A program made the position numbers and the translations under genes. Below are positions 16,410-25,209 of a stretch of DNA of 38,290 nucleotides, in pieces; the stretch's first letter is position 1, and each line of letters opens with the position of its first letter. The notes under the pieces are model-generated. The model was not told the DNA's origin, did no database searches, and saw only the letters and a list, made by a program, of their open reading frames with translations. Source of the stretch: a candidate division SR1 bacterium (GTDB lineage: Bacteria > Patescibacteriota > Gracilibacteria > Absconditabacterales > Absconditicoccaceae); contig JAPLUU010000004.1 of the NCBI GenBank assembly GCA_026397515.1, forward strand, positions 1 through 38,290, in the 5' to 3' direction.

Positions 16410-17846
16410 TTATGGCGAAGAAGTAAAAATCGGGTCTATATAATCACTGATCTCTCTTTCTGATCATTTCTGGATGGGGAGAACAAAATCCATTGTCGAG
16501 TTATTGACGTTGAAGACTGAACTTCCTATCTTGATAACCTTTGGAGATATTTTGATTGATTTAGCATCGATATTTTCTGAGACAACGAATACACTTTGTT
16601 TTATAAGATTTAATAAATTACTCAGAATGAAAATATGTGGGTTGATAATTCCTTTCTTGATCAATGCGACCTCGTCTTGTTTGAACGTATTTACGTCGAC
16701 AGTGAAGCTGATTTGTTTTTGTGTTGGATCATATTTTTTGAACGTGATAGAAAAACTTGGTAAATCTGTCTGTTCTAATTTTGTATCTACATAATACATC
16801 ATCTTCTTGAAAAAGTTTGTATCCGGTGGCGTTTTCTCTTTGTCCACGAGTGCATAATATCTATCAAAATCGCCGACCATATTACAGTCGTAATCGATTT
16901 CATAGGGATTGAGATAACAGTTGTTGAGGTAGACGAGAATATCTTTTTCTCCTCTATCTGCGAATGTATTCATTTCCGTCTGAACAGTTGCTGGTGGTAA
17001 TTTAAGCGCATTAGCTAGGCTAGAAACGAAGGTATCTAAATAACTAAAGACTTTGATTGCACTACTAAATTTAATGATCTCGAGTGAAAGCAAATATTTT
17101 TTGATAGATGTTGAATACTCTTTGTTTTCTAGCATGGTATACAACTCCTGTGAAAAAAATCCGTACTTGGAAATATCTTCTTTGAGTGTTGTCAGCTTTT
17201 GATTATTGGTTACAAATATATCTGAAAATCCATTGAGTGCCAACTGAAGGATATCTTTTTTCTGGATATAACTCAGTGTTTTTTCGTTGATAACTTTATC
17301 TACATTTGTTTCTTCTCCACTACCTACAATCGATAATGATGTATATTGTTGATAATTACTGAGATGTAATGTTTTGTCGAGAAACGTTTGTCATTGTTTG
17401 TAGGTATCTATGTAGGTCTGGTAGGTTGGACTAGGAATTGCTTGTGAAGCGTAATAGACATAACGGCTGTATAAGCGTAAAATTACTGATGCTATACCCG
17501 TTACTAGGATAACAAAAAATGATATCAAAAACAATTTTCGATACTGATTATGATATTTCGATTTATTCCTACTCATCAGACCACTATCACCCAACGACAC
17601 ATGATTTGCTTTCGTTTCGCTTGGTTGAATTATCGTCCCAAGATTTAGATTTTCCAATTTTAGTTCCTCTCTCGGTGCCCTTGTTCATTCTTCTTTATTA
17701 GCTTCAGAGATAAGGTTGGGAGCGGTTGGTTGTATTTCTAAATCATTGAGTTTTAAATTCGATAATCATGAAAAATCTGGTCCAGATGAACCTGAAGTAT
17801 TGATATTTGGTGTAGTTGTATTTTCGTTTTGTTTCTCTTCTGTCAT
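16410..17846 (-). CDS. Large bitopic protein, partner of the next gene
   Basis: A 478-residue protein. About 110 residues of Asn/Thr/Pro-rich, probably disordered cytoplasmic N-terminus precede one transmembrane helix (L-F-L-I-S-F-F-V-I-L-V-T-G-I-A-S-V-I-L near 100-120). A 350-residue extracytoplasmic domain follows, with a Cys pair (N-N-C-Y-L-N and Y-D-C-N-M) that may form a disulfide. The layout of disordered tail, single helix and large outer domain matches the downstream protein. TGA supplies Gly in D-F-S-G-L-S, K-E-E-G-T-R, Y-K-Q-G-Q-T and I-Q-K-G-S-E. Two terminator-like hairpins and a palindromic element lie upstream. Function unknown; a role in a surface machine is a guess from topology. 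Confidence 0.6.
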
Positions 17847-17907
17847 TGAGACTATCTGAATAAAATCTCGTACTATGAGTATAATCAGAATGGACTGAAA
17901 AACCAAA

Positions 17908-17931
17908 AAAATAGCCCTCTTGAGCTATTTT
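17908..17931 (-). terminator. Minus-strand terminator-like hairpin
   Basis: AAAATAGC (17908-17915) pairs with GCTATTTT (17924-17931) around an 8-nt loop. On the minus strand the stem is followed by a T-run. It lies downstream of the palindromic element at 17961-18055 and just upstream of the bitopic-protein gene, isolating that gene from upstream transcription. Confidence 0.55.
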
Positions 17932-18521
17932 GGATTGACAAATTTATAAAAAATGACGTGTTTACTCCCCCAACCCCTCTCCCGCCTTGCGGGACCTTGT
18001 TCCACAAAGGGGAGAAATTCCTCCTCTATTTTAGAGGAGGGTTGGGAGGAGTAAAAAAAACAAAAAAAAACCGGGACGAATACCGTCCCGATGTAATATT
18101 GTATTGATGATAATCACCAATTTTTCTTTATAAAGTCCATCACTTCATTAGATGGCCGAGCTCGCATAGTAGTGGACATAGAAAAAAAATCCGAATCATG
18201 TTTACCAAGCTTATCGATAAGCTTTACCAATCTGATGAAAATCTTTTTGATGCTCTTTTTGGTTTCTTCATCAAACTTAAGTTTTTTATCCTGTAAGGAA
18301 AGAAAAATTCCCTTTTCGATGATTTCAACATAGATTCCAATGTCGATGGTCATATCACAATCAGATATTTTCCCTTTGCTGTGCTGGAAAGAATTGATAC
18401 TACGAGTGATTGCAGCGACATTCGATTGGACAAGATCCTCGAAACAACGAGCCTCAAAGGTAAGTCCTACATTTAATTTTTCTGATGCAAAAATGATTGA
18501 AGGAATGATTTCTGTATACAT
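17925..18521 (-). CDS. Hypothetical protein with UGA before its terminator (formal code-25 ORF)
   Basis: The convincing part is 18114-18521: 135 residues, soluble and mostly helical, beginning M-Y-T-E-I-I-P-S-I-I-F-A-S-E-K-L-N-V-G and ending D-F-I-K-K-N-W before a TGA at 18114-18116. If that TGA is Gly, as elsewhere here, the frame runs on for 63 codons to a TAG at 17925-17927. It then passes through a strong rho-independent terminator and a whole palindromic repeat, giving a protein tail (F-V-P-V-F-F, K-I-E-E-E-F) that looks like noise. All five Gly of the 135-residue part are GGN. The real end may therefore be the UGA, or the gene may have lost its stop. Family not recognised. Confidence 0.5.
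17961..18055. repeat. Palindromic element, copy B
   Basis: About 95 bp with inverted ends: TTACTCCCCCAACCC on the left and GGGTTGGGAGGAGTAA on the right. Inner hairpins are CCCGC-ctt-GCGGG and CCTCCTCTA-ttt-TAGAGGAGG. A related copy lies at 18668-18760, and a variant at 9613-9722 shares the left end. No ORF of its own and no obvious target-site duplication. It looks like a small non-autonomous mobile or REP-type element. Confidence 0.65.
18072..18090 (-). terminator. Strong terminator of the 135-residue protein gene
   Basis: CGGGACG (18072-18078) pairs with CGTCCCG (18084-18090) around 5 nt. On the minus strand the stem is followed by a G and a long T-run (18062-18071 region). It begins 24 nt after the UGA at 18114-18116, with no TAA or TAG between in the gene's frame. 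Confidence 0.85.
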
Positions 18522-18667
18522 ATATTTATTTTTATTTATTTATCTTATATATATTTCCTATAAAATGTCAACAATTATTGAAAATATCCCTCAGGATAAT
18601 TTCGACCTCATAAAAATTTTCAATGCTTCAAATTTTCATTGGGTCTCAATTAAAAAAAATCCCTTTT

Positions 18668-18760
18668 TTTACTCCCCTAACCCCTCTGAAACAAAGGAGA
18701 ACAAAAAAATGCCCACCTTCGTGGACAAGTCCCTCTATTTTAGAGGGATTTAGGGAGTAA
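18668..18760. repeat. Palindromic element, copy C
   Basis: About 93 bp. The left end TTACTCCCCTAA is inverted at the right end as TTAGGGAGTAA. The right half holds CCCTCTA-ttt-TAGAGGG, and the centre carries CCACC-ttcg-TGG-type pairing. It has the same family and orientation as the copy at 17961. A 62-codon open frame from 18565 runs into it but seems accidental. Confidence 0.65.
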
Positions 18761-18780
18761 GAAATTATCCTCTAAACTTA

Positions 18781-18886
18781 TATATCGTCCTTCAAAAATA
18801 TTTTCTATTTTTGATTGAACGATATATAATTTCCTGCTATAATAATTCCTCATTATATTTTGGAATTATTTATGTAGGAAATTATA
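18781..18886. other. Two adjacent long hairpins at the FemAB gene 3' end
   Basis: Hairpin 1: TATATCGT (18781-18788) and TCAAAAATA (18792-18800) pair with TATTTTTGA (18806-18814) and ACGATATA (18819-18826). Hairpin 2: TATAATTTCCT (18825-18835) and AATAATTCC (18841-18849) pair with GGAATTATT (18862-18870) and AGGAAATTATA (18876-18886). Each has 17-20 bp broken by one small internal loop, and they abut. The FemAB stop codon (18866-18868) is inside the second stem. There is no T-run, so this is structured RNA or a palindromic insertion rather than a plain terminator. Confidence 0.55.
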
Positions 18887-19858
18887 GTAGAGTTTAAATA
18901 CCCAGTATAAATACTTATTTAACACAATATCATAACTTCCATATAATTCACTTTTGCTTCCACCTAACGATTCTTTGAAGGTACTTACGCTTGCAAGTGG
19001 ATGTTTGTCGAAACCTGTTGGTGCTCACCCACCTGTATCTACAATGGTAAACCCATTTTCTCTGGCTCGTGAAAAGAGTTTAAATTTCAAAAAATGTTGT
19101 ACTCCTATATTACTAAACCTTCTATCGAAAAATCCATATGGACAGTACATAAATTTTTCATCGAACAAACAAATCGTTCATGCAATCATTTCGCCATCGA
19201 GAAATGCGCCGATCAACATTCATTTTCCCTTCTCAATATATTTCAAAAGTCATTCGTACTGTAATATTGAGATAGTATTGAATCCTTTAGTGTCTGCGGT
19301 TTTTTGTCGTTTAGAAAAAAATATTTCGTAATCTTTTTTGTCGATGATACGATACTGCATTCCTCCCGCGATAGATTTTTTGATGCGTTTTCTACAACTT
19401 TCATTCATATCTTTGAGAAGTTCTTCGTTAGATTTTGTGGTATCGTAAACGATTCCTGCAGTCGGCATATTCTCTCTAAATGCTGGTATAATCTGATAAT
19501 CTAGCTGTAATCTTTTTTGCAATCCAAGTCTGAATGCTTTCATATCTTCTTTGAATTCGTTACATTTGTGTCGACTATTTTCGAACGTAACGATGTCATT
19601 GATAATTCCTAATTGGAAGAAAAATCATTTTCCATTGAGTTTTTTGCTCAGGTTTGCTAATTCTTTTTTGACATATTCCGTGTCCTCGGGAAGCTCTATT
19701 CCCATGATCTGATATCGTCTTGTCGTGAAGGGTCAGATTTTTTTTTCTTTGATAGAGCCGAAGTATTCTTTACCAAAAAGCTCAACCGTAAACATAGGTT
19801 TACAATAGATCTCGTGCTGGATATCCTTTCGAAGTTTGGATTGGTAAAAATTGTACAT
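18866..19858 (-). CDS. FemAB-like aminoacyltransferase (GNAT fold)
   Basis: A 330-residue protein. The first half contains F-G-S-I-K-E-K-K-I-G-P-F-T-T-R-R-Y-Q-I-M-G and M-N-E-S-C-R-K-R-I-K-K-S-I-A-G-G-M, the C-R-x-x-I-R-K-A-type motif of FemA/FemB/MurM. The second half contains G-A-F-L-D-G-E-M-I-A-G-T-I-C-L and V-D-T-G-G-G-A-P-T-G-F-D-K-H-P-L-A-S-V-S-T-F-K-E-S-L-G-G. It ends with N-K-Y-L-Y-W-V-F-K-L-Y-Y-N-F-L-H-K. FemAB enzymes use aminoacyl-tRNA to add amino acids to the peptidoglycan cross-bridge. A Shine-Dalgarno-like AGGTGG precedes the ATG. It follows valS after 20 nt, fitting a tRNA-using partner, though that link is only suggestive. Seven or so Gly are TGA. Confidence 0.82.
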
Positions 19859-19878
19859 CACCACCTAGCAGATAAAGA

Positions 19879-24843: not shown

Positions 24844-25209
24844 ATGAACAAAAAAACCAAACACAAACGCAGACGCATTAAGGTACGACAGTTTTTTGAA
24901 TTTATATTCTTACCGATTATTATTAGTGGTCTTCTTCTCTTACTCATGGTATGGGTAATGATCGAGCCATTAGGTATTCGATTTTCATCTGAGATACAGA
25001 TGTTAACTATATTGATTATTATAATCATCGTTATCGGAAGCGTATTATTCGAGATTTCCAGAATAATTATAAAAAAACTTATGCATTATTCTAATCCCGA
25101 TATCATCCAAAGTATGATCAAAAAACTTTTTAAGAAATGATACTGACTTGCGTTTTTCGTGGGTCAGTTTTTCTATTTGAAATTTTTGTTCACTATCATA
25201 TATACATAA
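24844..25209 (+). CDS. Small membrane protein with UGA before its terminator (formal code-25 ORF)
   Basis: The core is 98 residues (24844-25140): a very basic start (M-N-K-K-T-K-H-K-R-R-R-I-K-V-R), two transmembrane helices (about 20-42 and 50-72) and a basic C-terminal helix ending K-K-L-F-K-K. A TGA at 25138-25140 follows. Read as Gly, the frame adds 23 residues to TAA 25207-25209, but a rho-independent terminator begins only 1 nt after the TGA and lies inside this extension. The three Gly in the core are all GGN. The protein may therefore end at the UGA. The basic N-terminus recalls small insertion- or ribosome-associated membrane proteins, but no family is recognised. Confidence 0.5.
25142..25172 (+). 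terminator. Rho-independent terminator immediately after a UGA codon
   Basis: ACTGACTTGCG (25142-25152) pairs with CGTGGGTCAGT (25158-25168) as an 11-bp stem with three G-U pairs and a TTTTT loop, followed by TTTT. It starts 1 nt after the TGA at 25138-25140. Confidence 0.7.

Follow-up and report, generated by a model that had tools for sequence, protein, structure and literature searches.

A gene that ends in UGA in front of an intrinsic terminator in a bacterium predicted to read UGA as glycine

How does a gene end when the only stop codon at its end is one that its host is expected to translate? The window, a stretch of 38,290 nucleotides from a candidate division SR1 bacterium, features a 135-codon gene of an accessory family on the minus strand (MYTEIIPS...FIKKNW, 18117-18521) whose last residues, KKNW, are followed by TGA (18114-18116, minus strand). 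A perfect 7-bp hairpin, CGGGACG-GTATT-CGTCCCG (18072-18090, minus strand), lies 23 nt behind the TGA. RNA folding gives this hairpin -14.8 kcal/mol with z = -4.1, and it is followed by a T9 run (18062-18070, minus strand), so that it forms an intrinsic terminator and the message probably ends at the T-run. On the 5' side the gene features a promoter-like element, TTGACA...TATATAAGAT (18542-18571, minus strand), and then an A-rich leader without a Shine-Dalgarno sequence. A preliminary description had reported the KKNW-TGA end, the hairpin and the T-run, and their coordinates and sequence are borne out. It had also reported that all three frames are free of TAA and TAG between the TGA and the hairpin, which is true over the 52 nt that follow the TGA. 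The absence of a backup stop is ordinary when taken alone, because 129 of 273 gene ends in a sample of the genome (47%) are followed by 52 nt with no in-frame TAA or TAG, and for 22 of the 273 these 52 nt are free of both in every frame. What calls for explanation is the TGA, which stands exactly on the stop position of the gene family and is followed in frame by a terminator, an unusual combination.

The genome that contains the window (1.21 Mb, about 95% complete) uses genetic code 25, in which UGA encodes glycine, and UGA accounts for 2714 of 8483 glycine codons (32%) in 438 kb of it. RF2 was found over the curated cut-off in none of the 36 genomes of the same family, compared with 20 of 23 other genomes of the class. 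The genome encodes only two proteins with an RF-1 domain, RF1 and a small ArfB-like protein whose tail is basic, and this two-member pattern is common to all nine genomes of the genus. The RF1 features a PAT motif and a GGQ motif, the first glycine of which is itself encoded by UGA. A tRNA-Gly(UCA) at L005:1884-1957 features the glycine identity bases G1:C72, C2:G71, G3:C70 and U73, the identity criteria being those of PMC8629427; ARAGORN labels the same gene as tRNA-SeC. A tmRNA with the tag AKTLNRAFALVPSYSLAA, which ends in SLAA, is also encoded, as is an SmpB that scores slightly under the curated cut-off (113.7 vs 119.1 bits). As judged from this gene content, UGA should be decoded as glycine and stalled ribosomes can be rescued, because RF2 is absent and tRNA-Gly(UCA), tmRNA, SmpB and an ArfB-like factor are all encoded. 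Among the options of the preliminary description, which had proposed a search for the RF2 and tmRNA genes, residual UGA termination is not supported. Termination at UGA to some degree, through misreading by RF1 or through an unidentified factor, would agree with the several UGA-ended genes that remain intact reading frames and with a predicted fold of the window protein that is complete at residue 134. However, it conflicts with the lack of RF2 across the family, with an RF1 that carries the RF1 motif and with the frequency of UGA as a glycine codon genome-wide, and it is considered very unlikely.

Homologues of the window gene occur in 4 of the 99 genomes searched, its own included. In the genus-mates G004 and G006 the homologue lies between the same two conserved genes as in the window, where they encode 332 amino acids on one side of the slot (18866-19864, minus strand) and 498 amino acids on the other (16410-17906, minus strand). 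The flanking genes in these two genomes are 70-71% and 55-81% identical to those of the window, and the window gene is only about 44% identical to its homologues there. The same slot (16410-19864) is empty in G007 and holds unrelated genes in G001, G002 and G008, and the presence of the window gene in this variable slot is patchy. Both slot homologues end in KKW-TAA, with the TAA at the codon aligned to the TGA of the window gene, and in G006 a nearly identical terminator and a similar palindromic repeat follow. In the window the repeat is about 90 bp long and lies beyond the terminator (17964-18053), and a second copy lies upstream of the gene (18671-18760). The core of the repeat is also found in G001 and in another contig of the same genome as the window.

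The AlphaFold model of the window protein is confident and consists of a small beta hairpin and a helical bundle, the last helix of which ends at residue 134. The TGA is taken to be the true end of the protein because the homologues stop at the aligned codon and because of where this last helix ends. The preliminary description had pointed out that under code 25 the frame extends for 63 codons through the terminator and a repeat, and the frame is indeed open as far as a TAG at 17925-17927 (extension 17925-18113, minus strand, including glycine at the TGA). Its proposal to see where homologues end gives a clear answer, since the 63-residue extension is not shared by any of them. The extension could be a real part of the protein if transcription continued through the terminator, and the frame is open up to a TAG that stands beside the next hairpin; however, no homologue shares it and its codons would come from the strong terminator and the palindromic repeat, which makes this reading highly improbable. 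All five glycine codons of the window gene are GGN, as had been noted before. With UGA at 32% of glycine codons, five GGN in a row in one gene have a chance probability of P = 0.15, and the argument from the window gene alone was dropped. It is stronger across homologues and further cases, and among five homologues none of the 27 glycine codons is UGA.

A scan for terminators in frame behind a TGA covered 880 of the 1210 kb of the genome and gave four convincing TGA-ended genes, the window gene and three others. These are a gene of 384 codons (L066:7818-8969), whose extension would traverse a tRNA-Ser gene in antisense orientation, a gene of 190 codons (L080:17999-18568) and a gene for a complete CheY-like receiver (L200:6408-6773), each with its TGA before a terminator. 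One candidate of this kind was also found in G004 (L182:915) and one in G001 (L122:8780), the latter in the slot that corresponds to that of the window gene. The L080 gene ends in EYIAIAW-TGA-TAT, whereas its homologue in G004 (65% identity) ends in EYIAIAW-TAA-TAT with a homologous terminator behind it, and the homologue in G007 ends in TAA too. The four genes of the window's genome contain 30 glycine codons, all GGN, and the six TGA-ended genes contain 39, none of which is UGA; against the expected 32% this corresponds to a probability of about 3e-7 with codons taken as independent. When glycine is left out, the four genes are so foreign-like in codon usage that only 1.9, 4.8, 3.5 and 4.8% of native genes equal them, the figure for the window gene being 1.9%. 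A promoter-like TT[GT]AC...TATATAA motif is located 23-31 nt upstream of the ATG in all four and precedes only 17 ORFs in the sample. The arrangement TT[GT]AC-N-TATATAA, about 20-35 nt before the ATG and without a Shine-Dalgarno sequence, is seen in TGA-ended genes and in several genes that contain no UGA codon (UGA-free genes). A sequencing, assembly or strain-mixture artefact, with A as the true base and TAA as the true stop, would account for the one-base difference from the relatives, and the genome is a draft of 23 contigs with 4% contamination. However, independent errors at the stop codon are unlikely to have produced three more cases in this genome as well as a single case in each of G004 and G001, and an artefact is judged to be quite unlikely.

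Other candidates did not hold. The nonstop frames at L069:8307, L181:18071 and L183:14353 were discarded as they look non-genic. Within the window, a small membrane-like gene at 24844-25209 features a C-terminus that is longer than, and different from, those of its homologues in G004 and G007; it was rejected as a similar case, its TGA being internal in the relatives too. In G008, the native gene L088:16382-17359 features a TGA and then a TAG a few codons on, and its orthologue in the genome of the window ends in TAA. This gene is a stop-to-glycine extension with a near backup stop.

The TGA-ended genes resemble a larger class. In the 880-kb sample, 47 genes with at least 8 glycine codons are UGA-free, examples of which are found at L158:7204-8193, L187:8654-10207, L190:3321-4325 and L195:747-1796, and in 438 kb there are 19 UGA-free genes where about 2 are expected. 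The class features a GC content of 0.366 vs 0.327, less AGA and more CGT, TTC, AAC and CAG, leaders with 55% A vs 33%, and often a terminator of its own. The broad pattern is the same in G004 and G008. In orthologue pairs at 31-65% identity both members lack UGA codons (for example, 37/0 and 32/0 glycine codons), and where UGA-free genes have orthologues that are 76-92% identical, those orthologues are mostly not UGA-free. The codon usage of the four TGA-ended genes, with glycine again left out, resembles that of this class. Among plasmid records, the best match of the UGA-free SAICAR synthase is in Bacteroidota at 52-55% and that of the UGA-free agmatinase is in Bacteroidota at 44%. The thymidylate synthase and the radical-SAM protein gave no clear lead to a donor, and the CheY-like gene gave none. 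From these sequence comparisons the source of the UGA-free class is likely to be standard-code bacteria, with hints of Bacteroidota.

The window protein has no convincing family in Pfam, NCBIfam, PHROGs or PADLOC and no Foldseek match at E <= 0.001, and VIA-align gave only the Z values of a generic helical bundle. Its family was not found in standard-code organisms, phages or plasmids by pattern searches, which miss distant homologues, and no relative of the gene was found in viral contigs. Viral contigs, phages and plasmids likewise gave no relatives of the L066 and L080 proteins, and viral contigs gave none of the L122 protein. Because a standard-code homologue was not found, the import of the window gene is inferred from the features of its class.

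The explanation that is preferred here, and to which we give an even chance, is that the window gene, an accessory gene that is complete and of foreign, standard-code type, occupies a variable slot in a Gracilibacterium-like host with code 25, and that it still ends in UGA, which this host cannot read as a stop. Gene and UGA would have arrived together from a standard-code donor, and in the relatives that keep the gene UAA would have taken the place of the UGA. The ribosome would decode the final UGA as glycine, add about 18 mostly hydrophobic residues and run off the terminated mRNA at its 3' end with no stop met. Trans-translation by tmRNA-SmpB would then free the ribosome, adding the tag that ends in SLAA, and the product would be degraded; alternatively, ArfB would free the ribosome and the product would be released with a short tail. 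If the gene came in with its UGA stop, it would be clear why its family contains no UGA codons, why its codon usage is foreign, why occupancy of the slot is patchy and why only genes of this type end in TGA. Import had been among the options offered at the outset, and the evidence supports it for the gene class, through the absence of UGA, the foreign codons, the A-rich leaders and the three further cases, and leaves it putative for the window gene. The slot and its neighbours are common to G004 and G006 and the terminator is common to G006, which is a caveat on import and fits an old arrival with a later change of TAA to TGA. Additionally, high expression could be an alternative cause of the suppression of UGA. 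Confidence in import is limited because terminator-linked genes are often UGA-free. The comparison of UGA-free status between TGA-ended and other terminator-linked genes gives Fisher p = 0.04 in this genome and p = 0.003 across the sampled genomes, values that are modest because 42% of the terminator-linked genes of this genome are UGA-free anyway.

In-situ stop loss is a possible but rather unlikely alternative, in which a resident gene ending in UAA acquired UGA by one A-to-G change, became nonstop and is rescued, and is UGA-free by chance or through its expression. TAA, which differs from TGA by one base, is the stop of the homologues in this slot, the L080 gene and its G004 homologue differ as TGATAT and TAATAT before homologous terminators, and native genes of G008 show changes of a stop to TGA with a backup stop close by. 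Stop loss explains the one-base difference from the relatives more simply than import. However, all four TGA-ended genes are UGA-free and of foreign-type codon usage, and stop loss leaves the restriction of TGA ends to UGA-free genes unexplained. Mutation of TAA would also be expected to produce TAG no less often than TGA, and TAG still works as a stop, but it ends none of the 21 UGA-free terminator-linked genes. Whether the UGA was imported or arose by in-situ stop loss, the message would be nonstop, and import is compatible with the rescue of a lost stop by tmRNA, which had been listed as a separate option. The tmRNA, SmpB and ArfB-like factor that rescue calls for are encoded, and rescue itself is only inferred.

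Codon reassignment is often expected to shut out foreign genes. The genome of the window, in contrast, appears to hold standard-code genes, some of which are ended by a codon that no longer stops translation. We suggest tentatively that the code-25 bacteria of this family may keep a standing pool of standard-code genes that come repeatedly from organisms with UGA stops and in many cases have a promoter and a terminator of their own. In such a pool the UGA-ended genes would be natural nonstop genes that the cell tolerates, since their ribosomes are cleared by trans-translation and ArfB, and rescue would lower the barrier that recoding sets to transfer. If confirmed, these genes offer natural nonstop genes in which the fate of imports after recoding can be measured, and they would show whether ribosome rescue makes imported genes tolerable.

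Three known systems can be compared with this locus. The phages predicted for Gracilibacteria are code-11-compatible and typically use stops other than TGA (PMC10746230). The window gene is like them in having no in-frame UGA in a code-25 setting, but it differs in that UGA is its stop and in that a viral relative was not found. In arfA of E. coli and brfA of B. subtilis, the frame runs into a hairpin or intrinsic terminator before it reaches a stop, which leads to nonstop mRNA that is open to trans-translation, and both ArfA and BrfA work through RF2 (PMC8012679). The window gene resembles these genes in that its terminator precedes any in-frame stop, so that a nonstop mRNA is predicted; however, the cause is codon reassignment and not a conserved design, the orthologues have a normal stop and the product is no known rescue factor. 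Deliberate nonstop control of the arfA/brfA type, in which trans-translation keeps the product low and the product accumulates when tmRNA is saturated, would fit the shared layout and a hydrophobic tail like that of arfA (PMC8012679). The layout is not conserved, however, because the orthologues in G004 and G006 use TAA, and the RF2 that ArfA and BrfA need is absent here, and such control is hardly credible. Code 25 of Gracilibacteria and Absconditabacteria features UGA as glycine, loss of RF2, retention of RF1, a tRNA-Gly(UCA) and UGA that is common in genes (PMC8629427). The genome of the window agrees with this system in its lost RF2, its retained RF1, its tRNA-Gly(UCA) and the common use of UGA inside genes, whereas the window gene, with UGA on the stop position of its family and no further stop, lies outside the stop set of the code.
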